IMG/VR virus record: IMGVR_UViG_3300046506_000212
Coordinates: 1 to 41,379 of that record
Direction: 5' to 3' (one strand)
Source: a virus
Length of the DNA stretch: 41,379 nucleotides
In this document: positions 128 to 40,174 of the stretch, piece by piece
Position numbering within the stretch: the stretch's first letter is position 1
Layout: each line of letters opens with the position of its first letter
Translations under genes and position numbers: made by a program
The notes under the pieces: generated by a model
Told to the model about the DNA's origin: nothing
What the model saw: the letters and a program-made list of their open reading frames with translations, nothing else
The model's database searches: none

Positions 128-1059
128 ACAAGCCCGGCATAGACTCGGATGACTTTGAGTTGCGCCTAGATGACCGGGACGGCGCCCTGGCGTTACCGTC
201 ACGTGGCGTCGAGCTGGCCGTGTACCTGGGCTGGGAAGGCGAAGAACTGGCCTTGCTGGGCAAGTACACGGTCGATGAGGTCGAAGTCTCCGGCCCGCCT
301 GACACTATCGTCATTCGCAGCAAGTCCAGCGACACACGCGGCCCGGCCAAGACGACCCGTAGCGACTCCTGGGAAGGCGTGCCGCTGGCCAGCATTGTGG
401 CCGACGTCGCGAAGCGCAACGGCTGGACGCCTGAGTGCCCGGTACAGACGCTGGTCGAGCGTGCCGACCAGTTGGGCGAGTCGGATCTGTCGTTTATCAC
501 CCGGCTGGCCAAGCAATACGGCTGCACAGCCAAGGTAGCGGACGGCAAGCTTTTGGTTCTGCCTATCGACAGCGGCAAGAGCGCAAGCGGTAAGGCTCTG
601 GCAAAGGTCACGATCAATAAAACGGATTGCAGCCGGTATCAGTTTCGCCTGGGCGACGACAGCGTGAAAGAGGCGTCCAAGGCGGCGTATCAGGACGGAG
701 ACGGCAACCTCAAGACGGTGCAAGTCGGCAACGACGGCTTGGATAACCAGGCCCCTGTCCACACTGATCGGCACATTCACCCCAACCAGTCGGCGGCCGA
801 GGCGGCAGCAAAAGCCAGGCTTGAGGGTTTCAACCGCTCCCAGGCGGACGTCAGGCTTGAAATGGTCGGGCGTACCGACGTGTTTGCAGAGTCCCCTATC
901 GGGGCTGTGGGCTTCAAGGATGAGCTTGACGGCGAGTATCTGGCCGACACGGTGACGCAGGACTGGAACGCCAGCGGCTGGGTTACGACGATTGAGTGCA
1001 ACGCGGGCAACAAGGGCGGGAAAAAGGACAAGCCGCTAAAGGTTATCGACGTTAGCTGA
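43..1059 (+). CDS. D: Phage tail protein D (late control gene D / baseplate hub)
   Basis: This 338-residue protein matches the P2 gpD / phage late control D family, the hub at the base of the contractile tail that joins tube to spike. Family-typical stretches are the N-terminal beta domain (IVANGLDISDAI), a middle LysM-like segment (WEGVPLASIVADVAKRNG) and the FITRLAKQYG motif followed by KLLVLP. The ending TTIECNAGNKGGKKD is also typical. It follows gpU and gpX across the circle junction, the P2 order X-U-D. The start at 43 gives the family N-terminus directly, although no good ribosome binding site is seen. The assignment is firm; the terminator just upstream is the odd point. Confidence 0.93.
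   Translation: MKPVHKIVANGLDISDAINDRLLSARTVDKPGIDSDDFELRLDDRDGALALPSRGVELAVYLGWEGEELALLGKYTVDEVEVSGPPDTIVIRSKSSDTRGPAKTTRSDSWEGVPLASIVADVAKRNGWTPECPVQTLVERADQLGESDLSFITRLAKQYGCTAKVADGKLLVLPIDSGKSASGKALAKVTINKTDCSRYQFRLGDDSVKEASKAAYQDGDGNLKTVQVGNDGLDNQAPVHTDRHIHPNQSAAEAAAKARLEGFNRSQADVRLEMVGRTDVFAESPIGAVGFKDELDGEYLADTVTQDWNASGWVTTIECNAGNKGGKKDKPLKVIDVS
191..203. repeat. Dispersed palindrome, one mismatch (CGTTAC-C-GTCACG)
   Basis: Inside gpD; one arm mismatch, 1-nt spacer. Confidence 0.45.
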
Positions 1060-1069
1060 TGGGGACGGT

Positions 1070-1083
1070 CCCGGCCAGCCGGG
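1070..1083 (+). other. GC hairpin after gpD
   Basis: CCCGGC-CA-GCCGGG lies 10 bp after the gpD stop. There is no T tract, so it may act as an mRNA 3-prime stabiliser or a weak terminator at the end of the long late operon. Confidence 0.4.
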
Positions 1084-1110
1084 GCGAAGTGGATAGGAGT
1101 ACAGATGTTT

Positions 1111-1130: not shown

Positions 1131-1184
1131 TTAAGGCTTGTCGATAGAATGCTGTTAGTCGCGTGATGGAACGGGAGAACTGAC

Positions 1185-3264: not shown

Positions 3265-3564
3265 ATGACTAAACAAGCGCCGCACGTGGCCGCGCTCAAG
3301 GCCGATTTTCGCGACCGATTCGGGCACAGACTCAGCGCACGCAGCAGCCCAAGGGCGGGCGTTGAGGCCCTTCTGCTGTCAGTGCCTGCATTTGCTGGCC
3401 AGGGCGGCGCCCGTCCGTTACTCGTAACGATTGGTGCATGGCTCGAATCACGGGGGTTCTACCTCGATCAAGATCATGGTCGGGTCGGGCTGCTTTCGTT
3501 TCCTGACGGCTGGACTTGCTGGGAGTTGGGCATGTCGGTTCGCGTGCGATACAGGAGGGAGTGA
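3265..3564 (+). CDS. Hypothetical protein (99 aa)
   Basis: Unrecognised 99-residue protein starting with ATG at 3265. The N-terminal third is basic, followed by a hydrophobic stretch (VEALLLSVPAFAG) and an aromatic C-terminal part (SFPDGWTCWELGMSVRVRYRRE). It is the first gene after the origin candidate. It contains a perfect dispersed palindrome (3416-3429), and its stop codon lies inside a strong hairpin, which suggests post-transcriptional coupling to the next gene. No function can be assigned. Confidence 0.6.
   Translation: MTKQAPHVAALKADFRDRFGHRLSARSSPRAGVEALLLSVPAFAGQGGARPLLVTIGAWLESRGFYLDQDHGRVGLLSFPDGWTCWELGMSVRVRYRRE
3416..3429. repeat. Dispersed palindrome CGTTAC-TC-GTAACG
   Basis: Perfect 6-bp arms with spacer TC, inside the 99-aa gene. 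Member of the family described in the findings. Confidence 0.85.
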
Positions 3565-3623: not shown

Positions 3624-4034
3624 ATGTTCTGGCTGGTTGCGAGGGATGGTGTACGGACCTCGATTAACGCCGTGGATATGTGGGAGGCGATGCGGGATGC
3701 GTTGCGCTCCGATTGTGATTTGCTTGTCGCGGCTAGGCCTGGTCGCGTGCTGGGCCGGTCCGAATTGCTGGCCGCGCTCAAGTTGGGCCGCCCTGGCCTG
3801 TTTGATGACTACTTGCCCGGCTGGGAACCGCCTACCTTCGAAGAATTCCGCGAGCTGCTGCGTATTGCCCGGTTGACCGGCAGCATGGCTGCCGCCGTCG
3901 TCGGCGTGACGCCGGTCAAGATTCGCAAATGGGCGGGCGGCGATGGCAGCCCGCCGTATGCGGTCTGGCGTCTGCTGGCCATTTATGCCCGGCTCGCCGA
4001 GCCGTCGAGGGTGGAGCTGTCAGCGGCCGAATAA
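3624..4034 (+). CDS. Putative helix-turn-helix regulator (136 aa)
   Basis: The C-terminal half contains a helix-turn-helix-like segment (LTGSMAAAVVGVTPVKIRKW, followed by an aromatic helix ending LLAIYARL), similar in form to small phage/plasmid repressors. The N-terminal half (NAVDMWEAMRDALRSDCDLL) is helical and unrecognised. I chose ATG 3624 because GGAG sits 6-7 nt upstream and the longer start at 3516 would overlap the preceding gene and run through two hairpins. It lies just upstream of the partition cassette and may regulate replication or partition; that is inference. Confidence 0.6.
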   Translation: MFWLVARDGVRTSINAVDMWEAMRDALRSDCDLLVAARPGRVLGRSELLAALKLGRPGLFDDYLPGWEPPTFEEFRELLRIARLTGSMAAAVVGVTPVKIRKWAGGDGSPPYAVWRLLAIYARLAEPSRVELSAAE

Positions 4035-4040
4035 AATAAA

Positions 4041-4103
4041 GGATACCTATAGGATTGACATAGGATACTAAAGGGATATCCTTTGGGTATCTGTTCGGTA
4101 TCC
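4041..4103. repeat. parS: Partition iteron array 1 (six 11-bp repeats)
   Basis: Repeats with consensus GGATATCC start at 4041, 4052, 4063, 4074, 4085 and 4096, exactly 11 bp apart: GGATACCT, GGATTGAC, GGATACTA, GGATATCC, GGGTATCT, CGGTATCC. One repeat per helical turn directly upstream of parA is the pattern of a centromere/operator for a ribbon-helix-helix partition protein. Confidence 0.85.
4055..4082 (+). promoter_or_regulatory. parA promoter embedded in iterons
   Basis: TTGACA (4055-4060), 16-bp spacer, TATCCT (4077-4082). Both hexamers lie inside the iteron array, so binding of the partition protein should repress its own operon. Confidence 0.65.
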
Positions 4104-4118
4104 TTTGAGGGTTTAGGC

Positions 4119-4775
4119 ATGTCCATAATTTTGTTCGGCAATACCAAGGGCGGGATCGGCAAGTCGACGAGTTCGGTGCAAGTGGCCGTAGGCCGAGCGC
4201 TTCAGGGTAAAGACGTGCTGCTGGTCAATGGCGACCGGCAGTCATCGTCGGCAAAGGCCATCGGCCGTCGTGATGAGGCCGCCATTACCCCGAGCGTGAC
4301 GCTTGTGTCTTACCCTGAAGGCGACCAGTTGCGTACTCAGGTACTGCGGCTGGCCAGCAAGTACGATGACGTCATCATCGACGCGGGCGGGCGTGACAGT
4401 TCAGCACTGCGGCACGCGATGATGATTGCGGACGTCATGCTGGTGCCCATCGCCCCCGGCAACTTCGAGTTGGATGCCCTAGAGGATGAGTTAATACCGC
4501 TGATCCAAGAGATTCAGACCCTGCGCGGCGATAACCCGCTGCCGATCTACGCCTTTCTTAACAAGGCCGAGCCTAACAAGTTCTCAAGCGACAACATCGC
4601 AACGCGCAAATCCATAGAAAGCTTCCCTGAGTTGCAATTGCTGGATATCAACGTGGTGGATCGTAAGGCGATTGCTTCTGCCTCTACGACTGGTATCAGC
4701 GTTCGCGAAGCCAAAGTGAAGGACCCTAAAGCGGTCAGGGAAATTGACGCGCTCATGTCTGCGCTGTTTAATTAG
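4119..4775 (+). CDS. parA: ParA-family partition ATPase
   Basis: A 218-residue ParA/MinD-type ATPase. It has a deviant Walker A box KGGIGKST (residues 10-17, with the signature lysine at 10 and K15), a Walker A' region near LVNGD (about 32-36) and a Walker B-like strand DDVIIDAGG (about 88-96). It is short and lacks an N-terminal helix-turn-helix, as in type Ib systems that use a small ribbon-helix-helix partner, which is exactly what follows. The start is ATG 4119 with GAGGG 8 nt upstream; an earlier start at 4083 would fall inside the iteron array. It should segregate the plasmid prophage by moving on nucleoid DNA. Confidence 0.92.
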   Translation: MSIILFGNTKGGIGKSTSSVQVAVGRALQGKDVLLVNGDRQSSSAKAIGRRDEAAITPSVTLVSYPEGDQLRTQVLRLASKYDDVIIDAGGRDSSALRHAMMIADVMLVPIAPGNFELDALEDELIPLIQEIQTLRGDNPLPIYAFLNKAEPNKFSSDNIATRKSIESFPELQLLDINVVDRKAIASASTTGISVREAKVKDPKAVREIDALMSALFN

Positions 4776-4848
4776 GATATCGTTTAAATATCTAATGGGT
4801 ATCCCTTGGATATCTAAAAGACACTCTTTGAATATCTGGAAGGTATCT
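4775..4848. repeat. parS: Partition iteron array 2 (seven 11-bp repeats)
   Basis: Copies start at 4775, 4786, 4797, 4808, 4819, 4830 and 4841, again exactly 11 bp apart. The array begins on the last base of the parA stop codon and ends 1 bp before the ATG of the ribbon-helix-helix gene. 4819 is the weakest copy (AGACACT). The ribosome binding site GGAAGG (4838-4843) lies within the array. Confidence 0.85.
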
Positions 4849-4849
4849 T

Positions 4850-5104
4850 ATGGCATCAGTTATCAAGCGCGCCCCTAAGCCAGCGACAGCCGACCCGGCG
4901 TCGGATCAGGTAGCAACCAAGGCCGCCGCGACGGCGCCCGACAGCAAGGGGAAAAAGAACATGCGCGGAAAGCGCGAGATGTTCGCGGTGGGCTTTGAGC
5001 CGGAGCTTATGGCAGAGCTGGACGCCGCCCGTGCGCGGGTAGGTCTTTCGCGTCCGGCGCTGCTCAAGCTGGCCTTGCGGCGCCTGCTGGATTCCGGCGT
5101 TTAA
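4850..5104 (+). CDS. Ribbon-helix-helix centromere-binding protein (ParB/ParG-like)
   Basis: An 84-residue protein with an Ala/Lys-rich flexible N-terminus (residues 1-40) and a C-terminal ribbon-helix-helix fold: strand REMFAVGF (about 42-49), helix ELMAELDAARARVG, then the loop and helix LSRPALLKLALRRLLDSG. This is the architecture of ParG-type partners, in which the mobile N-tail stimulates the ParA ATPase, often through an arginine finger. It follows parA and is flanked on both sides by 11-bp iterons, its presumed binding sites. The gene and its role are well supported by context; the family name ParG versus CopG-like is not decided. Confidence 0.85.
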   Translation: MASVIKRAPKPATADPASDQVATKAAATAPDSKGKKNMRGKREMFAVGFEPELMAELDAARARVGLSRPALLKLALRRLLDSGV

Positions 5105-5114
5105 GGTGGCGTAA

Positions 5115-5166
5115 GGATCTATAAAAGATATTAAAAGGATATCCCTAGGATATTGTAAAGGTATCC
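5115..5166. repeat. parS: Partition iteron array 3 (five 11-bp repeats)
   Basis: Copies at 5115, 5126, 5137, 5148 and 5159 (GGATCTAT, AGATATTA, GGATATCC, GGATATTG, AGGTATCC), period 11 bp, between the ribbon-helix-helix gene and the next gene. Being downstream of the cassette, this array may be the segregation centromere proper, or may put the next gene under partition-protein control. Confidence 0.8.
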
Positions 5167-5214
5167 TTTAGGTTGTATAGTTCGTTCATCCAGTCAAACC
5201 AGGGATGTACGAAA

Positions 5215-5584: not shown

Positions 5585-6730
5585 ATGGCCCGTAAGCCCG
5601 TTCCCAAATACGTCCCCCTTGAACAGCGCCCGGCGTTCCTCGCGTCCGTCGAGGCGCTGCCCGTTGACCCGGCCGAACTGGAAGCGCTGGCCCGGCAAGC
5701 GCAGCAGCTCTATAACGATGCGGTCGTGGCCGGAGACGTTGAGCGGCTGGACGCGGCGCATGATGCTTATATGGCGGTGGTGGTGCGCCTCAATGGCAGC
5801 AATCCGGCCGGTTGCGGGCCGATCATCGGCGCGCTGGACAAGGCGCTGGCCGCTGCGCCGGGCCATGTGCCGGGCTGGGGGCAGGCCGGGCATTTCTTGC
5901 TTGAGGTGGACGGCCTGCGGGTGCAGGTGGTGGCCCGCTCCGGCACGCTGGAGAACCATTGCATTCATGATCTGATTGCGGTCGATCTGGACAAGCCATT
6001 TCCCAATGAGTCCGGCCGCAAGAGCCTGTACATGACCGTTACGCATCACCTGGGTGAAACGTTCGATCAGGCGGTGCGCCGGGCGGTGCGTGAGCTGCTG
6101 GTGATGGACGGCCAGATGGTCAGCATTGGCGCGGACGCCAAGCTGTTGCCGTCGCTGGCCAAGCGGCCGGGCTGGCTGGTCGATGCGCTGGCCGGGGTCA
6201 AGCCGGACGGTCAACTGGCGATGTTCGGCGATGCGCCGCCCGCCAAAGTCCCCTTGACCAACGCCCAGCGTCAGAAGGCATTGCGCGAGCGGCGCAAGCA
6301 GCAGCAATTGAAGCCGGTGATGCTGAACGAGCTGGACCGTAACGTGCTGCGCATGGCGTTGGACGCTTACGACTCGTTCGATGGCTGTTCGTCGACACCC
6401 GAGTACCGGTTGGGGTTGTTGCGGCGTCTGGTGCCGGGGGCCGATTGGTTCCCCGCCGAGCATCGCCAGTGCCAGCAACTGAAGCGCTTGCATGAGGCCG
6501 AGGTCGGCCGCTGGGTGCGCAAGAGCCAGGAGGGCAGCCAGGAGTCCAGCCGCTGGGCCGCCAAGGCGCGGGAATGGGAAGCTCAAGCCAAGGCCGCGCA
6601 GGCCTTGGAGAAAGAAAACGCCTTGCTGGAGAACGAGCGCAACGGCTCATTGGCGGCCGTCCAGACCTTGACCGAGCGCTTGCGCCGTGCGGGGTTGTGC
6701 ACTGACTACCGCAAGCAGCCGGGCGAATAG
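5585..6730 (+). CDS. Large hypothetical protein with C-terminal coiled coil (381 aa)
   Basis: Not recognised. The N-terminal third is helical. The middle contains a compact alpha/beta region (LLEVDGLRVQVVARSGTLEN, then DLIAVDLDKPFPNESGRKSL) and a run around FDQAVRRAVRELLVMDGQMVS. There is a basic linker (RQKALRERRKQQQLKP), and residues about 295-360 are rich in Glu, Ala, Gln and Lys and predicted coiled coil. Large coiled-coil proteins beside partition genes can be KfrA-like auxiliary segregation factors, but the N-terminal DNA-binding domain of KfrA is not evident. ATG 5585 lies 8 nt after a TTGGAG ribosome binding site. Confidence 0.65.
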   Translation: MARKPVPKYVPLEQRPAFLASVEALPVDPAELEALARQAQQLYNDAVVAGDVERLDAAHDAYMAVVVRLNGSNPAGCGPIIGALDKALAAAPGHVPGWGQAGHFLLEVDGLRVQVVARSGTLENHCIHDLIAVDLDKPFPNESGRKSLYMTVTHHLGETFDQAVRRAVRELLVMDGQMVSIGADAKLLPSLAKRPGWLVDALAGVKPDGQLAMFGDAPPAKVPLTNAQRQKALRERRKQQQLKPVMLNELDRNVLRMALDAYDSFDGCSSTPEYRLGLLRRLVPGADWFPAEHRQCQQLKRLHEAEVGRWVRKSQEGSQESSRWAAKAREWEAQAKAAQALEKENALLENERNGSLAAVQTLTERLRRAGLCTDYRKQPGE

Positions 6731-6743
6731 CGTGACCGTAACG
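6731..6743. repeat. Dispersed palindrome, one mismatch (CGTGAC-C-GTAACG)
   Basis: Directly after the stop of the 381-aa gene and before the hicAB promoter; spacer C, one arm mismatch. Confidence 0.55.
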
Positions 6744-6826: not shown

Positions 6827-7009
6827 ATGAAGTGCAGCGAGTTTCGGCGGTGGTTAACGGCTCAAGGCGCAACGTTTAAACATGCCAAGGGCAGTCATTG
6901 GAAGGTGTACGTCAATGACAAAATGACCATCTTTGCGGACCACGGGGCGAAGGAAATGCACGAAGGGCTCCGCAAATCGACCATCAAACAACTGGGCCTC
7001 AAGGACTGA
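6827..7009 (+). CDS. hicA: HicA-type mRNA interferase toxin
   Basis: A 60-residue HicA protein with the double-stranded-RNA-binding-like fold: KCSEFRRWLTAQGATF, then the G-S-H catalytic motif with His24 (KGSHWKVYVND), and a C-terminal GLRKSTIKQLGL helix, all family hallmarks. It blocks translation by cleaving mRNA unless bound by HicB. Start ATG 6827 fits the family N-terminus (MKCSEF) with AAGGA upstream. The gene precedes the antitoxin, the usual hic order. Confidence 0.93.
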   Translation: MKCSEFRRWLTAQGATFKHAKGSHWKVYVNDKMTIFADHGAKEMHEGLRKSTIKQLGLKD

Positions 7010-7042
7010 GGCCCGGTTGTACCCCTGACCGGTGAGGCCTTT

Positions 7043-7468
7043 ATGTATCAGTACCCGTTGGAGCTGCACCACGAAGCCACTGGCGTGTGGCTGTCGTGCC
7101 CGGACGTGCCGGAGTTCAACGCCTCCGGCGACACCCTGGACGAGGCCCTGGACGAAGTGAGCAACGGCATGGAGGCGGCGCTGTCGCTGTACGTCGACCA
7201 GCGCCGCAAGATCCCGGCCGCCTCGGTCGAGGCCAGCGGTCAAGCGCTGGTCGTGCGTCTGCCCGCGTTGACCGTGGCCAAGGTCATGCTCTGGAATACC
7301 CTCTGCGACGAGGGCGTCAGTCGTGCCGAGCTGGCCCGGCGCATGGGCTGCACGCGGCAGATGGTCGACCGCCTTGTCGACTTCCTGCATACCTCGAAAA
7401 TCGAGCAGGTGGAGCGCGCCCTGGGCCACTTGGGGCGGCGGCTGTCGATCAGTGTCGAGGCGGCGTAG
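7043..7468 (+). CDS. hicB: HicB-type antitoxin with C-terminal helix-turn-helix
   Basis: A 141-residue HicB antitoxin. The N-terminal partial RNase-H-like fold (YPLELHHEATGVWLSCPDVPEFNAS, then GDTLDEALDEVSNGMEAAL) binds HicA. The C-terminal helix-turn-helix (VSRAELARRMGCTRQMVDRLVDF) should bind the two operators upstream of hicA. It starts 33 bp after hicA. The pair would act as an addiction module that stabilises the plasmid prophage, and HicAB pairs can also limit superinfecting phages. The assignment is firm. Confidence 0.93.
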   Translation: MYQYPLELHHEATGVWLSCPDVPEFNASGDTLDEALDEVSNGMEAALSLYVDQRRKIPAASVEASGQALVVRLPALTVAKVMLWNTLCDEGVSRAELARRMGCTRQMVDRLVDFLHTSKIEQVERALGHLGRRLSISVEAA

Positions 7469-8609: not shown

Positions 8610-8623
8610 CGTTACGCATAACG
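8610..8623. repeat. Dispersed palindrome, one mismatch (CGTTAC-GC-ATAACG)
   Basis: Intergenic copy between the 70-aa and 77-aa genes; 11 of 12 arm positions. Confidence 0.6.
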
Positions 8624-10415: not shown

Positions 10416-10690
10416 GTGCTGCCCTCAAGCGCCCCCAGGCCACAGCAGTGCAGTGGCGCGCCGCTAAGGCGGTGTTGGGCCAGCAGGTCGCCGCCGTTGA
10501 GCGAGCGGACAGTCTGGAGCAGGTCAAGCACCTGCAGGACGTTGCCTTAGATTGGATCAATAGCTTGCTCGCCCTGGGCCTGTCGTCCGGCGCGGCCAGT
10601 CACTACCGGGCGGCCCTGCGTGTCGTCGTGCGCGCAACGCGGCGCCGCCTTAACGAAAGCGTTACCGTAACGAAGGAGACAATTGCATGA
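10412..10690 (+). CDS. Hypothetical helical protein, GTG start (92 aa)
   Basis: GTG 10412 overlaps the preceding stop (GTGA), and the 92-residue product is basic and helical (WRAAKAVLGQQVAAVERAD, WINSLLALGLSSGAASHYRA, LRVVVRATRRRL). An ATG further upstream (10310) would overlap the previous gene by 100 bp and is rejected. It contains a perfect dispersed palindrome near its end. Not recognised. Confidence 0.55.
   Translation: MSAALKRPQATAVQWRAAKAVLGQQVAAVERADSLEQVKHLQDVALDWINSLLALGLSSGAASHYRAALRVVVRATRRRLNESVTVTKETIA
10660..10672. repeat. Dispersed palindrome CGTTAC-C-GTAACG
   Basis: Perfect arms with a 1-nt spacer, just before the ribosome binding site (AAGGAG) of the 86-aa gene. Confidence 0.8.
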
Positions 10691-11081: not shown

Positions 11082-11339
11082 ATGTCTGGCTGGTCCGCAA
11101 AGGACGCCATTTATGAAGATGACCTTCGGCGCTACGTTGAACAGCACATTGTCCGCGAAGTGCTGGTGAGCCGCTTCGAGGGCGGCGAGTGGTGCTTGTG
11201 CGTGCGCCTGGGCGGTCCCACGTCGCGGTGGATTCCGGTTCGCTCACAGCGCGAGACGGTGCGTACCTGGGCAAGTCTGGACACGCTGACCAAGTGGGCC
11301 GACCGTTTAGGCCTGCGCGGTTATGCGTTGCAGATGTGA
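11082..11339 (+). CDS. Hypothetical protein (85 aa), possibly 5-prime truncated
   Basis: Begins MSGWSAKDAIYEDDLRRYVE and continues with a beta-rich part (VLVSRFEGGEWCLCVRLGG, then RWIPVRSQRETVRTWASLD). In frame upstream, past a TGA, lies a ribosome binding site and a helix-turn-helix-like start, so the present product may be the remainder of a longer DNA-binding protein. ATG 11082 has no good ribosome binding site. Its stop codon lies inside a repeated palindrome (11335-11348). Confidence 0.5.
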   Translation: MSGWSAKDAIYEDDLRRYVEQHIVREVLVSRFEGGEWCLCVRLGGPTSRWIPVRSQRETVRTWASLDTLTKWADRLGLRGYALQM

Positions 11340-11484: not shown

Positions 11485-11508
11485 AAGCCCCGCAAGTAGC
11501 GGGGCTTT
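11485..11508. terminator. Bidirectional terminator between convergent genes
   Basis: AAGCCCCGC-AAGTA-GCGGGGCTT with flanking A and T residues, between the rightward 85-aa gene and the leftward LuxR-type gene. It ends both transcripts. Confidence 0.85.
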
Positions 11509-11917
11509 AGGCGACGGCTCGCAGTGGAGGCCCGCCAGCCGGTGAGGTTGAGTTACGCGAGCAGCGTGACGTTTCCGTCATCGTTCTATCACGGCGGTGC
11601 CTACTGGGCCTTGTGCAGTCGTTCTCAATCTCAAACACTGCGGCGATGCACAGTAGCATGCACAGCGCTTGGGGGATGAGAACGCCCAAGGTAAAGGCGC
11701 GGGTGATCATGTGGACTTTGTTGCGTGCGCCTAGCTTGGCCATGATGGCCGATTCAACTTGGCGCATGCTTACCGGGTCAATGTCCAAGTGCTGCGCGAT
11801 GATGGGGGTGGGCACGCCGTCTGCCAGCCTGACCAGCACGTTCAATTCTTGATTGGATAGGTGCTGACCCGGCAGGCCTATTACTTCGTCGCCCACGATA
11901 GTGGCTTGTGCGGTCAT
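11507..11917 (-). CDS. LuxR-type helix-turn-helix protein with membrane-like segment
   Basis: A 136-residue protein with a GerE/LuxR-type DNA-binding domain: LSNQELNVLVRLADGVPTPI, IIAQHLDIDPVSMRQVESAI and MAKLGARNKVHMITRAFTLG (residues 20-79). It continues into a hydrophobic stretch (VLIPQALCMLLCIAAVF) that could be a membrane anchor, then an Arg/Ser-rich tail. There is no receiver or autoinducer domain. It is the third leftward gene behind the CI-like repressor, so it may be expressed in the lysogen. A lysogenic conversion or immunity function is possible. Confidence 0.7.
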   Translation of the reverse strand: MTAQATIVGDEVIGLPGQHLSNQELNVLVRLADGVPTPIIAQHLDIDPVSMRQVESAIMAKLGARNKVHMITRAFTLGVLIPQALCMLLCIAAVFEIENDCTRPSRHRRDRTMTETSRCSRNSTSPAGGPPLRAVA

Positions 11918-12288: not shown

Positions 12289-12954
12289 TTAACGGTCGGT
12301 CGCGATTCTAACGACTCTTCCGACGACCTGTACCTTGTCCATTTCCTCGCGGGACAGGTGTTGGTCCGGGTACTCGCTTTGATTTTGAGCCAGCAAGGTA
12401 AAGCTGCCGTCTGTTTCCTGGCGAATGCGGCGAATCCAGATTTTATCGGCTACGACAATGCCGAACAGGTCGACGCCTTCCGGTTTAGTCCGGGTGCAGT
12501 CGAGCAGTACCTCGGCCTTTTCCTCGATCAGGGGTGACATGGACGAATCGAGCTGGTGAATAGCTAAAAGCTTGCTGCTATCTAAGCCGCGACGCTCAAG
12601 GTAAGGGATGTGGTAAGCGCTGTTTGCGCATGATTGAGGCACGGCGATGGTGCCCGCATCGGTAGTAATAATGGGGCTGTTCGCGGTTACGTAGTTTGTT
12701 TTAGCGCCGGTTCCGTCTTCATCATTGGTATAGCCGTTTAGCCACGCGGGGGTTTTCCCAAGAACTACGGCAAGGCGCATTAGGTTTTCGGTCTTTGGCG
12801 CTCGTACTTCAAGTTCCCAGTTGTAATAGGCGGACATGGATATTTTGGCGCCACTCATGGCGTTGATACGGGCAACAACTTCATCGGGTGTCAGTTTCGA
12901 TTCGGCGCGGGCCTGCCTGATGCGATGTCCGATGATTTTGTGAAGCTCGTTCAT
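12289..12954 (-). CDS. CI-like prophage repressor (helix-turn-helix + S24-like domain)
   Basis: A 221-residue phage repressor. The N-terminal Xre/lambda-type DNA-binding domain (IIGHRIRQARAESKLTPDEV, then ISMSAYYNWELEVRAPKTEN, about residues 7-72) is followed by a linker and a C-terminal LexA/CI S24-like fold with the serine motif SSMSP (Ser138). Where LexA has V-K-R-L with the catalytic lysine, this protein reads I-R-R-I (residues 174-177), so the lysine is replaced by Arg175. Self-cleavage is therefore doubtful, although an Ala-Gly pair occurs at 100-101. It should bind the TACAC-N5-GTGTA sites and maintain lysogeny. Leftward, divergent from the Cro-like gene. Confidence 0.9.
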   Translation of the reverse strand: MNELHKIIGHRIRQARAESKLTPDEVVARINAMSGAKISMSAYYNWELEVRAPKTENLMRLAVVLGKTPAWLNGYTNDEDGTGAKTNYVTANSPIITTDAGTIAVPQSCANSAYHIPYLERRGLDSSKLLAIHQLDSSMSPLIEEKAEVLLDCTRTKPEGVDLFGIVVADKIWIRRIRQETDGSFTLLAQNQSEYPDQHLSREEMDKVQVVGRVVRIATDR

Positions 12955-13018: not shown

Positions 13019-13042
13019 GTGTAAAAATACACTTAAAGTGTA
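13019..13042. promoter_or_regulatory. CI operator with three half-sites
   Basis: GTGTA (13019), 4 bp, TACAC (13028), 5 bp, GTGTA (13038). The right pair is a perfect TACAC-N5-GTGTA inverted repeat, extended to 17 bp by flanking A and T. Confidence 0.8.
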
Positions 13043-13052
13043 TGGAGCGCAA
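13024..13052 (-). promoter_or_regulatory. Repressor-maintenance promoter (PRM-like)
   Basis: On the minus strand TTGCGC (plus 13047-13052), 17-bp spacer, TATTTT (plus 13024-13029). The operator half-sites at 13028-13042 fill the spacer, so the repressor can regulate itself. Confidence 0.6.
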
Positions 13053-13061
13053 AAAAACAAC

Positions 13062-13090
13062 TTGAGCTGTTCAGGAACCTGACATAGAGT
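13062..13090 (+). promoter_or_regulatory. Early rightward promoter (PR-like)
   Basis: TTGAGC (13062-13067), 17-bp spacer, TAGAGT (13085-13090), directly followed by operator 13091-13105, which would cover the transcription start. Confidence 0.6.
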
Positions 13091-13105
13091 TACACAAATA
13101 GTGTA
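13091..13105. promoter_or_regulatory. CI operator at the early promoter
   Basis: TACACAAATAGTGTA, a perfect copy of TACAC-N5-GTGTA, 17 bp before the Cro-like start codon. Confidence 0.8.
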
Positions 13106-13121
13106 ATTTTTTGGTGTCGCA

Positions 13122-13388
13122 GTGGACCTCAATAGTTGGATTGATCAAGTCAGTGAGGCTAAAACGTCTCTGCGTCAGGGCATGCGCCATGTCGTACCGG
13201 CTGCCGTCCTACTGAATGAAAATCCCCGCACTGTCTATTCGTGGTATCGCCGCGAGCGATCCCCGGCCTTTCCTGCTGCCATGAAGATCGTCACCATTTC
13301 GGGCGGCGCTGTTGACTACAACGGCATTTTCCAGCCATTCCAGCAGGCTGCCGAGCGCGCCAAGGTTTCCAGCAGTGGCGGCCTTTAA
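13122..13388 (+). CDS. Cro-like helix-turn-helix protein (88 aa), GTG start
   Basis: Small DNA-binding protein divergent from the CI-like gene. The region VVPAAVLLNENPRTVYSWYRRERSPAFP has a helix-turn-helix with recognition helix near PRTVYSWYRR, followed by AMKIVTISGGAVDY, a pattern seen in small Cro/YdaS-type phage regulators. GTG 13122 is the first start that keeps the N-terminal helix; the ribosome binding site is weak. Position and size support the Cro role. It overlaps the next gene by 14 bp. Confidence 0.72.
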   Translation: MDLNSWIDQVSEAKTSLRQGMRHVVPAAVLLNENPRTVYSWYRRERSPAFPAAMKIVTISGGAVDYNGIFQPFQQAAERAKVSSSGGL

Positions 13389-13962
13389 GCTCGACGCCGG
13401 TTTTTCCTCGCGGCCTGAAGTCAAAAAGGTTGAGCAGCGCTTCGCCCTTGCGGGCATGGCTCGTATGGTCAAGATCCTTGAATTGCTGACCGGCAGCCCA
13501 GACCCCGCCAGCGGCGTTATTGAAATGCCTGTCAGTGATTGGGAGGAAGTCATGCAGCAAGGCTCTGTCCTGCTTATGCCGTTCCTGAGCTACTTGCAAC
13601 AAGCCGATTGGCTGACTGTAGATCCCGACGTTGAAGTTGGCGCGCCGTTACGAGTAACGGTCAGCAATCCCCAGCAATATCTCGTTTCGGACGCGGCATT
13701 GCCGACGTATCCCCAGCTTTTCAGCCAGCCCGCCGAGTGGCGCGACTGGTTCGTCACTGAGCTGACGTCTCCCGGCTACGCCGTCGATACGCCGGAGACG
13801 CAGCAGCTTTTCCGGCGTTGGTGCGCAACCAACGTCACGTTGACCGAAATACAGGCCGCCATAGAGCTGGCTATTACTGCGAGGCAGGCGCCGACCCCGG
13901 CTGCACTGCACGAATACATTAAGGCTGTGCGCAAACTCAAGTTAGAGGACGCCCGACGCTGA
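13375..13962 (+). CDS. Putative phage replication-associated protein (195 aa)
   Basis: GTG 13375 with AAGG 9 nt upstream gives a protein starting VAAFKLDAGFSSRPEVKKVE. This opening, with ARMVKILELLTG and SDWEEVMQQ after it, resembles the winged-helix N-terminal domain of Lin1244/Lin1753-like phage replication proteins. The C-terminal region (EWRDWFVTEL, FRRWCATNVTLTEIQAAIEL) is helical, as in DnaT-like primosomal proteins. It is the first gene after Cro in the early rightward operon. The family call is tentative; replication in the lytic cycle is the inferred role. Confidence 0.55.
   Translation: MAAFKLDAGFSSRPEVKKVEQRFALAGMARMVKILELLTGSPDPASGVIEMPVSDWEEVMQQGSVLLMPFLSYLQQADWLTVDPDVEVGAPLRVTVSNPQQYLVSDAALPTYPQLFSQPAEWRDWFVTELTSPGYAVDTPETQQLFRRWCATNVTLTEIQAAIELAITARQAPTPAALHEYIKAVRKLKLEDARR
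13646..13659. repeat. Dispersed palindrome CGTTAC-GA-GTAACG
   Basis: Perfect arms, spacer GA, inside the replication-associated gene. Confidence 0.8.
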
Positions 13963-15222: not shown

Positions 15223-15236
15223 CGTTACGCGTAACG
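15223..15236. repeat. Dispersed palindrome CGTTAC-GC-GTAACG
   Basis: Perfect 14-bp palindrome in the intergenic space before ninX. Confidence 0.85.
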
Positions 15237-17350: not shown

Positions 17351-17818
17351 ATGACCGATGTGCCTGTTTTGCCGTATGTGGTGGGTGGCTTGGACGTAGC
17401 GACGGATCGAATTGAGGGGCCTTTGCTGCACTGGAGCGCGGCCACTGATGAGCTTGTGACAGGTCACAGCGATGCGGAAAGCGATCTAAGTCCCGAGGCG
17501 CAGCGCAAGCGCGAACAGCGCGACCGCGAAAAAGCGGCCGGGGTTGAGGTGTTTGAGCTGAAATTCAGCGCCTTCGAACGGGCCGAACTGGACGAAGGCC
17601 GCGTAGGCCGTGGCTCTCAGGGTGAGCCGTATACAGCAACCGAGTACGTCAAAACGCTGATCCGCAACGACGTGAAGCGGTTGCGCATTGAGCAAGGGAA
17701 ACTCGCCGGGCGGATCTGCAAGAATTGCTCGAAGGCTCTACCACGGGGCTGTGGCGGCACATGGGGGAGCGAGCAGCGGTGTTTGTTGCGGGCTTCAGAG
17801 GTGGCGTTATCGCTTTGA
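17351..17818 (+). CDS. Hypothetical protein with RHH-like segment and Cys cluster (155 aa)
   Basis: Residues about 50-115 (SPEAQRKREQRDREKAAGVE, then FELKFSAFERAELDEGRVGR and ATEYVKTLIRNDVKRL) resemble small ribbon-helix-helix-type proteins with a basic helix in front. The C-terminus has C-x2-C and two more cysteines (ICKNCSKALPRGC, EQRC), a possible zinc ribbon. It contains one copy of the TGTGACAGGTCACA palindrome. It sits between int and the late promoter, where a late regulator would fit; this is inference. Confidence 0.6.
   Translation: MTDVPVLPYVVGGLDVATDRIEGPLLHWSAATDELVTGHSDAESDLSPEAQRKREQRDREKAAGVEVFELKFSAFERAELDEGRVGRGSQGEPYTATEYVKTLIRNDVKRLRIEQGKLAGRICKNCSKALPRGCGGTWGSEQRCLLRASEVALSL
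17455..17468. repeat. Palindrome TGTGACAGGTCACA (copy 2)
   Basis: Inside the 155-aa gene, encoding part of LVTGHS. The surrounding 19 bases (17453-17471) are identical to copy 3 at 18720-18738. Confidence 0.75.
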
Positions 17819-19273: not shown

Positions 19274-19400
19274 CGAGGACATGACGGCCGCGCTCGATGA
19301 TACCGAGGCGGCCTTGAAGGCCTGCGCAGTTCAAGTGTTGGACTGCATTCAGCGACAGGACGCTGCGGCGTCCGTTACGGGTAACGAGGTTTCAAAGTGA
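19107..19400 (+). CDS. Rz1: Outer-membrane spanin lipoprotein (Rz1)
   Basis: A 97-residue lipoprotein embedded out of frame in Rz. The signal peptide MTIKFGFIWLLLSLLLSAC ends in the lipobox L-S-A-C (Cys19), followed by a proline-rich stretch (ATPAPQPLTPLPGERDRP). It extends beyond Rz by 127 bp, longer than classical Rz1, with a helical C-terminus (ALDDTEAALKACAVQVLDC). Confidence 0.88.
   Translation: MTIKFGFIWLLLSLLLSACATPAPQPLTPLPGERDRPRLCPLVACPLPGRPAPGHNEDMTAALDDTEAALKACAVQVLDCIQRQDAAASVTGNEVSK
19373..19386. repeat. Dispersed palindrome CGTTAC-GG-GTAACG
   Basis: Perfect copy at the end of Rz1, 10 bp before the next GTG start. Confidence 0.85.
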
Positions 19401-28589: not shown

Positions 28590-29176
28590 ATAAGCCCAGC
28601 GTTGGCGAACATGACCGCATTATCGCGGCCATGCTCATGCCCGGCAAAGTCTCGGCCGTGGATCTGAAAAAGGGCAAGGTCCGCATTACGTCGCGTGAAG
28701 GCTGGGTAAGCCCCTGGATTCGCTGGTTTAGCAAGGCGGCAGGCAGCGCTCGGCACTGGCGTGCGCCGTCCATGAACGAGCAAGGCATGATCTTCAACCC
28801 CAGCGGGCAGCCGGGTTTGGGGGGCTTCGCGCCGGGCCTGTTCAGCGAAGCCGGTGGCGCGCCTGATGACCGGGATCATGTCGAGGTCTGGGAATTCCCG
28901 GACGGCGGTCGGCTGGTCTACGACTGGGAAGCCAAGACCTACGACATAACCTTGCCCACGGGCACGGTGACGACAAAGGTCGGCAGTACAACGTCGGTCG
29001 TTACGGATAACGCGGCATCGATCAAGGTCGGTGGTGCTGCATTCGAAATGACGCCGGGCAGCATCAAACTTACCGGCGAAGTGCAAATCGTAGGCGGCCT
29101 AAAGGTCACTCAAGACATTTTCGGCGGCGGCCAAATCATCGATACGGGTGGCAACACGCCGAATCACAAGCACTAA
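28586..29176 (+). CDS. V: Baseplate spike protein gpV
   Basis: A 196-residue gpV protein starting with GTG 28586. The N-terminal OB-fold region (MPGKVSAVDLKKGKVRITSR, EGWVSPWIRWFSKAAG) and the C-terminal beta-helix repeats (TLPTGTVTTKVGSTTSVVTD, SIKLTGEVQIVGGLKVTQDI) end in N-H-K-H, the HxH type iron-binding tip of P2-like spikes. The spike pierces the outer membrane. Confidence 0.93.
   Translation: MNKPSVGEHDRIIAAMLMPGKVSAVDLKKGKVRITSREGWVSPWIRWFSKAAGSARHWRAPSMNEQGMIFNPSGQPGLGGFAPGLFSEAGGAPDDRDHVEVWEFPDGGRLVYDWEAKTYDITLPTGTVTTKVGSTTSVVTDNAASIKVGGAAFEMTPGSIKLTGEVQIVGGLKVTQDIFGGGQIIDTGGNTPNHKH
28999..29012. repeat. Dispersed palindrome, one mismatch (CGTTAC-GG-ATAACG)
   Basis: Inside gene V; same mismatch type as the copy at 8610. 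Confidence 0.5.
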
Positions 29177-31307: not shown

Positions 31308-32152
31308 CCGAACAAACGATGCTGAGCGCCGCGCAGGCGCTTGTCGCGGCCCTTGAAGGCACGCCGGGGGTTTCGCTCGATGCTGCACGCACATTGCTTC
31401 AGCTTGTGTCTGTATCGCCTCTGGCGGCCTTGAGCGCGGCGGCGGATCAGTTCTACACGCTGTTAACCATGGAAGGGGCAACGGAGTTCATCGCCGCCCA
31501 GGCGGCAGCAGGCGACGTCAAAGTGCCGTTTACCCATATTGCCCTGGGCGATGGCAACGGCCTGCCGGTCACGCCAAACGAGGCCATGACGGGCCTTGTT
31601 AACGAGGTCTACCGGGTTCCCATCACCAGTATCACGGTGGACCCGAACAACTCGAAATACTTGATCCTTGAGGCCGTTATTCCGACAGTGGTCGGCGGCT
31701 GGACGGTCAACGAGGTGTCGGCCATTGGCGGCCGGGCCGGTGGCCTGACGTTGGCGGTGGGCAACTTCCCGCCGACCTATAAGCCCATGCTGAGCCAGGG
31801 CAGTGCCCGCGACATGGTTGTTCGCATGGTTATTCAGGTGGGCAACGCTTCGGTGGTGAGTTTCGCCATTGACCCGTCCGTAGCCGTGGCGACGAATCAG
31901 GCAATCATCAACGCGATGAACGCGCACTTGCTGGAGGTCAACCCGCACCCGCAATACGCGATGTTGGCGGATCTGGTGCATCACTTGATGGCGCTCGATC
32001 CACACCCGATGTACGCCAAAGGTGACGTTCTCACGGCTCATGCCAACGACCCCCACGCGCACGGAATTTACCTCACTTCGGCCGATCTGGACGCGGCTAT
32101 GTTGGCCGCCAAGCCCAACCCGGCATTGGTCCATTTCCGCACCACTATGTAA
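31304..32152 (+). CDS. Tail-collar/fibre N-terminal protein (DUF3751-like)
   Basis: A 282-residue protein. Residues about 60-200 match the phage tail-collar fibre domain: FTHIALGDGNGLPVTPNEAM, LVNEVYRVPITSITVDPNNS, VIPTVVGGWTVNEVSAIGG. The C-terminal part has a loose tandem motif NPHPQYA, DPHPMYA, DPHAHGIY, the histidine-rich segments found before fibre tips. It is shorter than usual H-type fibres and ends without a receptor-binding tip, so the next two genes probably complete the fibre. Confidence 0.85.
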   Translation: MTEQTMLSAAQALVAALEGTPGVSLDAARTLLQLVSVSPLAALSAAADQFYTLLTMEGATEFIAAQAAAGDVKVPFTHIALGDGNGLPVTPNEAMTGLVNEVYRVPITSITVDPNNSKYLILEAVIPTVVGGWTVNEVSAIGGRAGGLTLAVGNFPPTYKPMLSQGSARDMVVRMVIQVGNASVVSFAIDPSVAVATNQAIINAMNAHLLEVNPHPQYAMLADLVHHLMALDPHPMYAKGDVLTAHANDPHAHGIYLTSADLDAAMLAAKPNPALVHFRTTM

Positions 32153-32165
32153 GGAGTAGGCCGTT

Positions 32166-32501
32166 ATGAGTAACGGGCTTTACGGTCAAATCTCGCCCGC
32201 TGCGGGCATATTGACCAAGGCAACAACTATCGCCGTTCCGGCCAACAAGACGCGCTCTGTGATCCTCGGCGCCTGCAATACCTCGGATGAGTCGACCGCC
32301 AAAATTTACATTGCGGTCACTGATGCGGCGTCGGCTGTGACTGTTCCTGTGGCGGCTTACAAGTCATTCGGGCGCAAGCTTGGGCCGGGCGACGAGTACG
32401 AACGGAGCGTGCTGCTGGGTCCCGGTGAAAACGTGTGGTTCAAGTCAGATAAGGCGGGCGTAGCTTTCGACGTTCGCGGTTTTGAAGGGGATGCAGCATG
32501 A
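32166..32501 (+). CDS. Hypothetical fibre-associated protein (111 aa)
   Basis: Beta-rich (TTIAVPANKTRSVILGACNT, AKIYIAVTDAASAVTVPVAA, ERSVLLGPGENVWFKSDKAG), like small domains that sit on fibres or cap trimers. Overlaps the 661-aa gene by 4 bp. Not recognised. Confidence 0.65.
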   Translation: MSNGLYGQISPAAGILTKATTIAVPANKTRSVILGACNTSDESTAKIYIAVTDAASAVTVPVAAYKSFGRKLGPGDEYERSVLLGPGENVWFKSDKAGVAFDVRGFEGDAA

Positions 32502-35291: not shown

Positions 35292-35304
35292 CGTTACCGT
35301 AACG
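35292..35304. repeat. Dispersed palindrome CGTTAC-C-GTAACG
   Basis: Perfect arms with 1-nt spacer, directly after the 102-aa gene and before the terminator at 35323. Confidence 0.85.
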
Positions 35305-37504: not shown

Positions 37505-37528
37505 CCACGCGGGGCTTGAGGTAGGGGC

Positions 37529-40174
37529 ATGTCGGAAGCATTAGCGCTAAGTCTTGTAATCGGCGGCGCGGTCGCGGGGTCCCTCGGCAAGGCCTTTGGA
37601 GACGTCGATAAGCGCGTTAAGAACCTTCAGTCGGTGTCGGGTAAGGCCAGGGTCCTGCAATCGGTTGTAGGCGAAACCAAGGCCTTGCAAGACCAATGGC
37701 GCAAGGCGCACATGGCGGGCGAGGCCGGGGCTGACGGGCTGCGCAAGAAGCTGGAGGCCCAGCTTGACATGCTCAAGCGTAATGGCGTCGAGGTCGGCAA
37801 CCTGGGCAAGGCCTATCAGCGTCTCGAACGCCAGGCCAGGGGCGCGGAACTCAAGGAAAAGGGGCAGCAGCAAATCAGGGACGGCGGCCGTGGCCTACGT
37901 AACGTCGGCATTGGCGTTGCGGCCGGTGCCGCCGCCATCGCGATCCCAGCGAAGGTAAGCGCGGAATACAACGCGATCATCCGTGACATTGCGATCAAGG
38001 CCGGTATTGCCAACAAGCCGGAAGAGGCGCAGGTCTCGCGCAAGATCATTGATACGTCGCACGCCAGCGGCCTGGGGCGTAATGAAACTGCGGATCTGGT
38101 CAACGCGCTGGTAGGTGCCGGTATGGACCTGACCAAGGCCATGGAGTACGCGCCGGTTGCGGCGAAATTCGTGGTCGGTCAGGGCGCCGATGGCGTCGAC
38201 ACGGCCAAGATGATCATGGCCCTGGGGCAGAACGCCAAGATTACCGACCCGGCCATGATGGAAAAGGCCCTGGAAGGCATCGCGTTTCAAGGTCAGGCGG
38301 GCAGCTTCGAGGCCTCGGACATGGCCAAATGGTTCCCCGAGCTGCTGGCTGGCATGGGGAAATTGGGCATTACCGGCACCGATGCGGCCGCCCAGTTGGG
38401 CGCCATGCTGCAAGTGCAAATGAAGACGGCGGGCAGCAGCGACGAGGCGGCGAACAACCTCAAGAACTGGATGGAAAAGATCGGTTCAGGGGACGTTGTA
38501 AAGGCCTACAAAGACGCTGGGATCGACTATCAAGGGTCCATGAATACGGGCCTTGAAAAGGGCAAGTCGACGCTAGAAACCAGCTTCGCGTTGGCTCAGA
38601 AGTACATTGAGAAAACGGACCCGAAGAAAGCCAAGCAAATGGCCGAAGCGGTGTCGAAGATCAGCAAGGAAGCGGACCCGGCCAAAGCCAAGGAAATGAT
38701 GGCGTCCCTTGAAACGGCATTGCGCACGGGCGACCTGTTCAGCGACATGCAGGTAAAGGCGGCGCTCACTGCGTATTCGCAGAACAAGGACCTGTACGAG
38801 CAGCTTAAAAAGGACTCTGGCAACGCTAAAGGCATTCTGGATAAGAACCTTGCAGAGCGGCGCGAGACGTCATCGCAGAAGTGGAAAGAGGCCGGTAACA
38901 GCTCCGACGACGCCTTGCGCGCAATCGGTGATGCCCTGGCCCCGATTACCGACCGCGTAGCCGTTGGCGTCAAGACGGTGGCCGACAGCCTGGGCGAACT
39001 GGCCGATGCGTCCCCCCGTGTCGTGAGTGGTGTTGTTGCCGTGGGCGGCGCTATCGCTGCCATGGCGGCCGGTTACAGCGCGTTCAAGGTTGCGAGGGGC
39101 GTGGCCAACATCGGGCGCGGCACGCTCATGGGTGGCGATCCTAACCGTGTGCAAAAGGTCGAGATTGTTAACGGCTTTCCGGGCGGTGGTGGCGGTGGCC
39201 ATGGTGGTGCCGGTCCGGGCGCGGGTCCTGGCGGTGGCGGCCCTGGCGGTGGCCCGGCGCCTAACGGCCCGGCTCGTCGTTGGTGGCGCCGCAACCCGGC
39301 GCCAGTGCCACCAGTTCCACCAGTGCCACACATTCCACCGGCACCACACGTACCGCCCGCGCCGCATGTGCCCCCGCCAGCACCGCACGTTCCCCCTGTG
39401 CCCCCAGGACCGCCAGCGCCACCCGGCCCAGGTGGTCCCCCGCATCCGCCCGGACCGGGCGGCGGTGGTGGCATGCGCTTTCACGGCGGGTCGGCGCTCA
39501 AAGAGTCGTGGCCCGAGGAGCTGTTGAATGCGGGCCTCAAGATCAAGGAGGTGTACGACTCTGACGCCTCCAAGGAAGACAAGGCCGTGGGTTACGGCGA
39601 GGCGGGCGGCACCATGGCGGGCACGCTGGCCGGTGCTGCGGCGGGTGCGGCCATTGGTTCGGTCGTGCCGGTCATTGGTACGGCCATCGGCGCAATGATT
39701 GGCGGCTGGCTTGGCTCTATGGGCGGCGAGGCCCTGGGCGGCTACGCCGGTAAAACGCTGTTCGGTGGGGATGACGACGCCAAGGCCGAGCCGGGTACGC
39801 CGCTGATGATGGCGGCGGCCGGGCAGACGGCTGGCCCTGGCCCGGAGATTCCAACCCTTTCGCAGTTTGCCAATGCCTACGGCCCCGGCGTTACGGGTAA
39901 CGCGGACGGGCAGGTTATGGCCGAGCTGATGAAAAAGCCCGACCCGGCCAACCCATCCCCGGCTATCTCGTTGTTGGCCTCGGCCAAACCTGCCCAGGCG
40001 GCGCCGGTCGAGCAAAGCACGACTTATTCGCCGGTCATTCAAATTACCGTCAACGGCGATGCAAAGGACCCCCGGCAGATGGCTGACACCCTGATGCCGG
40101 AGATTAAACGCCAGCTTGAGGACATGGCACGCCAGCAGACGCGGCGCAGCATGACCGATGAATCGCACACGTAA
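37529..40174 (+). CDS. T: Tail tape measure protein
   Basis: An 881-residue TP901-type tape measure protein: long helical N-terminal part (residues 1-130), a family core with ETADLVNALVGAGMDLTKAM and FEASDMAKWFPELLAGMGKL, a hydrophobic membrane-like part (ASPRVVSGVVAVGGAIAAMA) and a second Gly/Ala-rich hydrophobic segment near 705-745. Residues about 550-650 are an unusual Gly/Pro/His-rich linker. Length would correspond to a tail of roughly 130 nm, if 1.5 angstrom per residue holds. AGGTAGGGG precedes the ATG. Confidence 0.93.
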   Translation: MSEALALSLVIGGAVAGSLGKAFGDVDKRVKNLQSVSGKARVLQSVVGETKALQDQWRKAHMAGEAGADGLRKKLEAQLDMLKRNGVEVGNLGKAYQRLERQARGAELKEKGQQQIRDGGRGLRNVGIGVAAGAAAIAIPAKVSAEYNAIIRDIAIKAGIANKPEEAQVSRKIIDTSHASGLGRNETADLVNALVGAGMDLTKAMEYAPVAAKFVVGQGADGVDTAKMIMALGQNAKITDPAMMEKALEGIAFQGQAGSFEASDMAKWFPELLAGMGKLGITGTDAAAQLGAMLQVQMKTAGSSDEAANNLKNWMEKIGSGDVVKAYKDAGIDYQGSMNTGLEKGKSTLETSFALAQKYIEKTDPKKAKQMAEAVSKISKEADPAKAKEMMASLETALRTGDLFSDMQVKAALTAYSQNKDLYEQLKKDSGNAKGILDKNLAERRETSSQKWKEAGNSSDDALRAIGDALAPITDRVAVGVKTVADSLGELADASPRVVSGVVAVGGAIAAMAAGYSAFKVARGVANIGRGTLMGGDPNRVQKVEIVNGFPGGGGGGHGGAGPGAGPGGGGPGGGPAPNGPARRWWRRNPAPVPPVPPVPHIPPAPHVPPAPHVPPPAPHVPPVPPGPPAPPGPGGPPHPPGPGGGGGMRFHGGSALKESWPEELLNAGLKIKEVYDSDASKEDKAVGYGEAGGTMAGTLAGAAAGAAIGSVVPVIGTAIGAMIGGWLGSMGGEALGGYAGKTLFGGDDDAKAEPGTPLMMAAAGQTAGPGPEIPTLSQFANAYGPGVTGNADGQVMAELMKKPDPANPSPAISLLASAKPAQAAPVEQSTTYSPVIQITVNGDAKDPRQMADTLMPEIKRQLEDMARQQTRRSMTDESHT
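39180..39475 (+). repeat. Gly-rich then Pro-His-rich low-complexity tract in the tape measure gene
   Basis: Glycine-rich coding (GGN repeats) to about 39265, then repeated CCACC/CCGCC units encoding PPVPH, PPAPH and PPGPP motifs to about 39475. Codons vary between units, so the protein repeat is under selection rather than a fresh DNA slippage product. Confidence 0.8.
39889..39902. repeat. Dispersed palindrome CGTTAC-GG-GTAACG
   Basis: Perfect copy inside the tape measure gene, same spacer as the copy in Rz1. Confidence 0.8.

Follow-up and report, generated by a model that had tools for sequence, protein, structure and literature searches.

A dispersed CGTTAC-N1/2-GTAACG palindrome in a phage-plasmid and its relatives, with a KlcB-like protein as candidate binder

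Introduction

Short DNA sites spread over an entire replicon have been described for temperate phages as well as for plasmids. In mycobacteriophage L5 and other cluster A phages, more than 20 short stoperators occupy promoters and short gaps between genes across the temperate phage genome. They are asymmetric 13-bp sequences, oriented with transcription and bound by the immunity repressor. Cluster K mycobacteriophages possess the SAS/ESAS repeats just 5' of start codons, some of them with inverted repeats and a variable spacer, and the function of these repeats is unknown. Here, we analyze the palindrome CGTTAC-N1/2-GTAACG, termed M1, which is dispersed over the IMG/VR virus record IMGVR_UViG_3300046506_000212, a phage-plasmid of 41,379 nucleotides (this whole stretch is referred to as the window).

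M1 shares with the SAS/ESAS repeats a preference for leaders, but it is shorter, has a spacer of only one or two bases and is often found at gene ends or in the middle of genes. Unlike the asymmetric L5 stoperators, M1 is a perfect dyad in which one half is as fixed as the other. Like M1, the KorB operators (OB) of the IncP-1 plasmid RK2 are palindromes scattered on a plasmid, proximal to or far from promoters, and they serve a global plasmid-borne regulator; klcB, to whose family our candidate gene belongs, is part of the same plasmid world as RK2 KorB. M1 agrees with KorB and ParB operators in being a set of dispersed palindromes on a plasmid backbone, albeit with a different sequence and with copies also inside virion genes. 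No KorB/ParB-type protein was detected among the approximately 18 window proteins scanned with Pfam, which are part of the open reading frames (ORFs). The linear plasmid prophage N15 has centromere sites that are inverted repeats scattered on the phage-plasmid, whereas the partition module of the window has separate iterons and a ribbon-helix-helix (RHH) protein, and M1 is more numerous. The C1 operators of P1 are many and dispersed and serve one regulator on a phage-plasmid; they are asymmetric, unlike the palindromic M1, which is not tied to the repressor gene. A literature search on the exact M1 motif found no relevant paper.

Results

The window carries eight perfect copies of M1 and seven copies with one mismatch. 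In genomes simulated with Markov models of order 2 and order 4 built from the window, 0.005-0.013 perfect sites were expected, or 0.15-0.32 sites when one mismatch is allowed, and the simulation maxima were one perfect and three near sites, as opposed to the 8 and 15 observed. The simulation thus confirmed the estimate of an earlier sequence-only reading of this DNA that the pattern should occur far less than once in 41 kb. The same reading had located all eight perfect and five of the one-mismatch sites correctly and overlooked those at 16126 (CGTTACCCGTTACG) and 32162 (CGTTATGAGTAACG). When spacers of 0-12 were scanned in the window, perfect pairs occurred only at spacers 1 and 2, and CGTTAC was the commonest 6-mer gapped palindrome (8 copies, with 5 for the runner-up). 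The coefficient of variation of the gaps between sites was 0.38, below every one of 5000 random placements. In eleven relatives tested, it was 0.58-0.89 with a lowest P of 0.04, showing no clear regularity. The fairly even spread proposed previously therefore holds for the window, and we dropped regular spacing as a trait of the family.

As also noted in that reading, the sites lie both within and between genes. Perfect copies were found 5' of a helix-turn-helix (HTH) gene at 3516/3624-4034 (CGTTACTCGTAACG, 3416-3429), shortly 5' of a ribosome-binding site and the start at 10687 (CGTTACCGTAACG, 10660-10672), within 13375-13962 at an offset of 271 that is identical in several relatives (CGTTACGAGTAACG, 13646-13659), in an intergenic position (CGTTACGCGTAACG, 15223-15236), and at the end of 19107-19400, 5' of the start at 19397 (CGTTACGGGTAACG, 19373-19386). 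Further perfect copies span the 3' end of TerS and the 5' end of TerL, a position kept in nearly all relatives (CGTTACTCGTAACG, 21513-21526), follow a stop codon by 6 nt on the 5' side of the tail-sheath gene (CGTTACCGTAACG, 35292-35304), and lie in the tape-measure gene (CGTTACGGGTAACG, 39889-39902). The copies with one mismatch are located within the baseplate-hub gene (CGTTACCGTCACG, 191-203), immediately past the stop of the KlcB-like gene, where several relatives have a site as well (CGTGACCGTAACG, 6731-6743), 7 nt after another stop codon (CGTTACGCATAACG, 8610-8623), in the 5' part of the tyrosine-recombinase gene (16126-16139), in the portal ORF (CGTGACGGTAACG, 24117-24129), at a conserved position of the gpV-like spike gene (CGTTACGGATAACG, 28999-29012), and at a gene junction (32162-32175).

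Among the phage-plasmids, 47% of M1 sites lay 60 nt or less from a gene boundary versus 25% expected (P 1.7e-9) and 59% inside predicted genes, where the gene calls in relatives come from a simple home-made caller and individual starts are approximate. Many of the non-genic sites are found a few bases past a stop codon and ahead of the next ribosome-binding site, or between a stop codon and a terminator. An apparent strand asymmetry of M1 variants was discarded as largely homologous positions counted repeatedly.

The record is circular, as its termini overlap by 127 bp. Its gene set comprises P2-like tail genes, a lambda-type terminase, a cI-like repressor, a tyrosine recombinase, ParA and an RHH protein, the terminase and portal labels being borrowed from annotated relatives. 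Terminase relatives sit in prophages within genomes of the Pseudomonas fluorescens and putida groups, and the early genes of the window recur in relatives deposited as circular plasmids, among them pPL-38ph from P. lundensis and pHN2. With its circularity, phage structural and partition genes, and relatives deposited as plasmids, the element is a phage-plasmid, in agreement with the plasmid prophage assumed before. In the 82-kb pHN2 (L468), the gene set recurs at intervals of about 41 kb, as in a dimer of a single phage-plasmid, which this record resembles.

In 34 related phages, the two spacings of M1 were seen 105 and 73 times versus 0.06 expected each, more than 1000-fold over composition, and M1 was the most over-represented gapped palindrome among these approximately 34 Pseudomonas phages. 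An unbiased scan of IMG/VR with CGTTACGCGTAACG returned at least 80 loci, and most of the 80 retrieved encode relatives of the window phage. The genomes compared are related and unevenly sampled, and several IMG/VR records are fragmentary. Among 12 host genomes, 4-7 Mb in size, the core GTTAC-N1/2-GTAAC occurred 1-14 times, mainly clustered in prophages, and copies outside prophages were at the level predicted from the half-site frequency. A depletion of M1 in host chromosomes was only apparent, because half-sites are rare and 3.6 copies are expected per 6.2 Mb. We also found no indication of a host regulon, as the chromosomal matches were scattered and had no flanking C/G. The M1 set is linked to phage-plasmids and absent as a set from host chromosomes. 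Neither an equal density in host DNA nor a lack of conservation in relatives, the two observations that could have overturned the earlier reading, was encountered: outside prophages the density was at chance level, and sites were kept at non-coding as well as coding positions.

The location of M1 differs between phage-plasmids and integrative phages. In phage-plasmids, the density was 3.9 per 10 kb in the early and 3.3 per 10 kb in the late region (about 3.5 overall), whereas in integrative relatives M1 was confined to the late module at 2.7 per 10 kb. The early regions of 19 integrative genomes contained no M1, one-mismatch forms included, and resembled those of site-free phages. The late modules have evidently been exchanged between phage-plasmids and integrative phages, because the similarity of TerL does not track the early type. 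Dispersed M1 persists together with different late modules in pPL-38ph, pHN2, pPAC1.3b, pHQS1 and PARCL1pr, which carry 7-16 sites (10 in P. aeruginosa pPAC1.3b, 14 in the Delftia lacustris plasmid pHQS1 and 15 in Pseudomonas phage PARCL1pr). Both pHQS1 and PARCL1pr are siphophages of HK97 type, and the phage-plasmid G002 has dispersed M1 despite another contractile tail. As phage-plasmids with other late modules still bear dispersed M1, the motif belongs to the phage-plasmid core. A binder encoded in the tail module, first suggested by a gene-content correlation with P2-like tail genes, was dropped, since G002, pHQS1 and PARCL1pr combine other tails with M1 and the P2-like tail is nearly site-free in G068/G073.

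Inside genes, M1 was often retained together with unusual codons. A perfect site occupies the same codons of the gpV gene in 21 of 31 phages and retains CG-TTA-CNC-GTA-ACG, in which the rare TTA, accounting for 2.4% of Leu codons, and the Val codon GTA are kept while the middle residue is H, R or L. In TerS, site-bearing phages have GTT-ACG-CGT-AAC as opposed to CTG-GCG-CGN-AAC or similar in site-free relatives. Ranked by codon identity, the site window came 6th of 175 in TerS and 15th of 188 in gpV. The site windows of the sheath, gpE, gpJ and integrase genes did not rank high, because the sites there are complete or entirely gone; for gpE, gpJ and sheath, presence was mostly all-or-none. Some gpV sites of integrative phages show single-base decay, which is suggestive only. 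These codon patterns, in which M1 persists intact along with rare codons although neighboring residues vary, indicate that M1 is maintained by natural selection at the DNA level.

To find a gene that follows M1, we compared the gene content of 18 M1-rich with 10 M1-poor phage-plasmids, the latter being Vibrio, Aeromonas, Edwardsiella and Halomonas elements together with the IMG/VR contigs G100-G102. A KlcB-like family was present in 17 of the 18 M1-rich and in none of the M1-poor elements (Fisher P 8e-7, relatedness not corrected for), the sole early cluster with this distribution. Genes for cI, ParA, the integrase and most other early genes occurred in both sets. In the lone M1-rich exception, G020, only a stretch resembling the last codons of the KlcB-like gene (FERPPGE*) lies beside an M1 site. 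The Pseudomonas plasmids pA506, pHPA0875-3, pCR1 and pPH1PALO530, which are free of phage genes, carry a 38-41% identical homologue and 3-6 M1-type sites. They are not fully independent cases, as several homologue-bearing plasmids are mutually close and pA506 has a klcB-hicAB module in common with phage-plasmids. This module (L524, 7377-10884) contains klcB, hicA and hicB with M1 in phage-plasmid-like surroundings and looks like an exchange of a module between a conjugative plasmid and phages.

The KlcB-like gene of the window lies on the plus strand at 5585-6730 and encodes a protein of 381 amino acids (P0003), which we regard as the best candidate for the M1 binder. Similarity to the KlcB family was seen in 320 plasmid records, the best at 38-47% identity over about 270 residues; matches annotated as KlcB are found in pA506 and, more distantly, in IncP plasmids. 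An alignment of twelve members revealed an N-terminal domain and a variable helical C-terminus, with an invariant basic Arg-Gln-x3-Arg stretch that is also present in the shortened G002 form. The AlphaFold model comprises a confident N-terminal domain (residues 10-175), a basic helix (226-240) and a long C-terminal helix (321-368). On the 3' side of the gene, 6827-7468 probably encodes a HicA/HicB toxin-antitoxin pair by analogy with pPL-38ph and pHN2.

Among the neighboring features, the partition module consists of ParA (4083-4775, plus strand) and the RHH protein (4850-5104, plus strand), likely the centromere-binding partner of ParA. Direct reading of the sequence revealed iterons of (A)GGATAT/GGTATCC type 5' of parA (4039-4112), unlike M1 and probably the centromere of this module. 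Similar AGGATATC/GGTATCC-type iterons at about 4770-4850 and 5110-5180 flank the RHH gene and likely belong to the partition centromere as well. The cI-like repressor of S24/LexA type is encoded on the minus strand (12289-12954). The repressor region contains the palindromes ATACACTT-N-AAGTGTAT and GTTACAC-N5-GTGTAA (13027-13113), which are unlike M1 and are probably cI/Cro operators. A LuxR/GerE-type HTH gene (11507-11917) lies on the minus strand like cI, two genes farther downstream. Its product is small, with a conserved hydrophobic segment and an Arg-rich tail, and the gene is found beside cI in phage-plasmids of Pseudomonas, Delftia, Vibrio, Aeromonas and Edwardsiella.

A second dispersed palindrome, M2 (YGTGAC-N2-GTCACR), has four copies in the window, at 11335, 17455, 18722 and 19949. 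Its conserved places in relatives are the stop codon of the 11082-11339 homologue, the inside or end of the phrog_536 gene and the 5' end of the 3624-4034 homologue. The phrog_536 gene (17351-17818, plus strand), a putative transcriptional regulator with an M2 site inside, is also found in site-poor phage-plasmids. As M2 itself also occurs in the site-poor phage-plasmids G099-G102, its binder is probably different from that of M1.

Some other elements have features of their own. L334 (8378-8756, corresponding to G068 31613-31991) contains an array in which a unit of about 52 bp is repeated eight times in tandem with M1 in each copy, one of them mismatched. This array lies near Dam-like methylase and umuDC-like genes, and the tail genes of the phage have no M1. 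The P. aeruginosa phage-plasmid L470 (CP124676.1) carries mercury-resistance transposons, one of which disrupts the tail-sheath gene. The Halomonas qaidamensis plasmid L517 has 4-5 copies of the kindred palindrome GCGTTA-N2-TAACGC, possibly a local version of the dispersed site.

Discussion

From these patterns, we infer that M1 is bound by a protein, which protein this may be, and that the sites serve in silencing or maintenance. In our proposal, M1 would be recognized in a sequence-specific manner, as double-stranded DNA, by a dimer that tolerates a change of one base in spacing. The binder would be encoded in the phage-plasmid core, most likely as the KlcB-like protein or as a partner whose use depends on it. 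Bound sites at the ends of genes, in leader regions and within operons could then act as genome-wide roadblocks or as an architectural scaffold, which would keep the plasmid prophage quiet and stable in a logic like that of KorB operators on RK2 or of stoperators. Integrative phages would retain M1 through continued uptake of late modules. We consider it an even chance that M1 represents dispersed operators of such a plasmid-borne global DNA-binding protein, with the KlcB-like protein as the likeliest, silencing or organizing the plasmid prophage. A genome-wide silencer or maintenance factor, as suggested in the sequence-only reading, still appears to be the best account of the sites. The binding factor, which was not evident there, can now be narrowed to one candidate gene family, albeit as a candidate only.

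Several observations weigh against this proposal. Neither a Pfam domain nor a PDB sequence match nor a significant fold match was found for the KlcB-like protein, and in its model only the conserved basic helix suggests DNA binding. Integrative phages without the gene hold their late-module sites in good condition, and therefore either frequent module exchange or another binder is needed. IncP and IncW plasmids with a distant KlcB carry no M1. As a gene close to other plasmid genes, the KlcB-like gene could be a linked passenger, and the compared genomes are not phylogenetically independent. The M1 sites of pA506 may have arrived with the exchanged module, since their HicAB-adjacent context is shared with the phages. 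The KlcB-like protein may represent a new kind of DNA-binding protein, but it may also be a partner of the true binder, or its passenger.

We considered whether M1 could instead be a dispersed centromere, as in N15, used by a partition protein to segregate the plasmid prophage. M1 is indeed tied to phage-plasmids, ParA is present in every site-rich one, and N15 provides a precedent for dispersed palindromic centromeres. However, the ParA-RHH module owns its AGGATATC-type iterons, and we accordingly set aside the idea that M1 is simply the centromere of that module. M1 is also equally present with two different partition modules, ParA occurs in all site-poor phage-plasmids too, and integrative phages retain late M1 sites, all of which makes a centromere unlikely.

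The LuxR/GerE-type HTH protein of the cI operon was another candidate, which might bind M1 and silence the lysogen. Its gene, located in the repressor operon, was at first the only perfect correlate, being present in 16 of 16 Pseudomonas-type site-rich phage-plasmids and in none of the three site-poor contigs G100-G102, and its recognition helix is conserved in the site-rich Pseudomonas phage-plasmids. The Vibrio, Aeromonas and Edwardsiella plasmids demoted it as a discriminating binder: versions up to 50% identical exist in these M1-free phage-plasmids, 7 of the 10 M1-poor elements have the gene, and the Delftia and PARCL1pr versions that accompany M1 are just 34-35% identical. We therefore regard this protein as a distinctly unlikely binder.

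If M1 sites were stoperators, the cI-like immunity repressor bound to them would halt elongation genome-wide, and the L5-like spread of M1 over early as well as late operons, close to where genes end and start, would be in line with such a function. Yet the cI control region is free of M1 and has TACAC..GTGTA palindromes instead, which excluded the repressor as the obvious binder. Given also that cI-type repressors occur in all site-poor phage-plasmids and that L5 sites are asymmetric and orientation-bound, the comparison with L5 stoperators drawn earlier did not hold, and we find this explanation improbable.

We assign equally little credit, or slightly less, to a nucleoid protein or regulator encoded by the host. 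Pseudomonas is the host of most carriers, but copies in the chromosomes are no more frequent than chance predicts and do not make up a regulon. Unrelated phages are without M1, as most of the IMG/VR loci encode relatives of the window phage, and phage G039 has no perfect site even though it resides in the same host genome as the site-rich G024.

The notion that M1 marks recombination joints between exchangeable modules drew on the ends of homologous blocks, which lay at most 20 nt from M1 in 3.7% versus 1.0% for random points. Gene boundaries in general already reach 2.3%, alignments tend to end on a conserved word, and many M1 sites are deep within conserved genes, leaving this notion a very small probability. 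That M1 acts as an mRNA hairpin with a 5-bp stem is hardly credible despite the many sites in leaders shortly 5' of ribosome-binding sites or before terminators, because the letters of the stem stay the same across 136 independent contexts, alternative stems are nearly absent and the common variants CGTGAC..GTAACG break the stem.

Conclusion

To our knowledge, no function has been established for KlcB-family genes, which are widespread on plasmids as judged from the 320 matching records, and the tracking of one subfamily by M1 points to what such proteins may bind. We put forward, as a tentative idea with a somewhat less than even chance, that KlcB-type proteins are previously unrecognized global DNA-binding proteins of phage-plasmids and some Pseudomonas plasmids, which would silence or organize the whole replicon via dispersed M1 sites, and that site-laden modules flow between plasmid and integrative phages. 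If so, a plasmid-type global regulator would be added to the biology of phage-plasmids, and a late virion module could bring the regulatory marks of a plasmid past into integrative phages. M1 would then also be a ready signature for spotting such elements in metagenomes.

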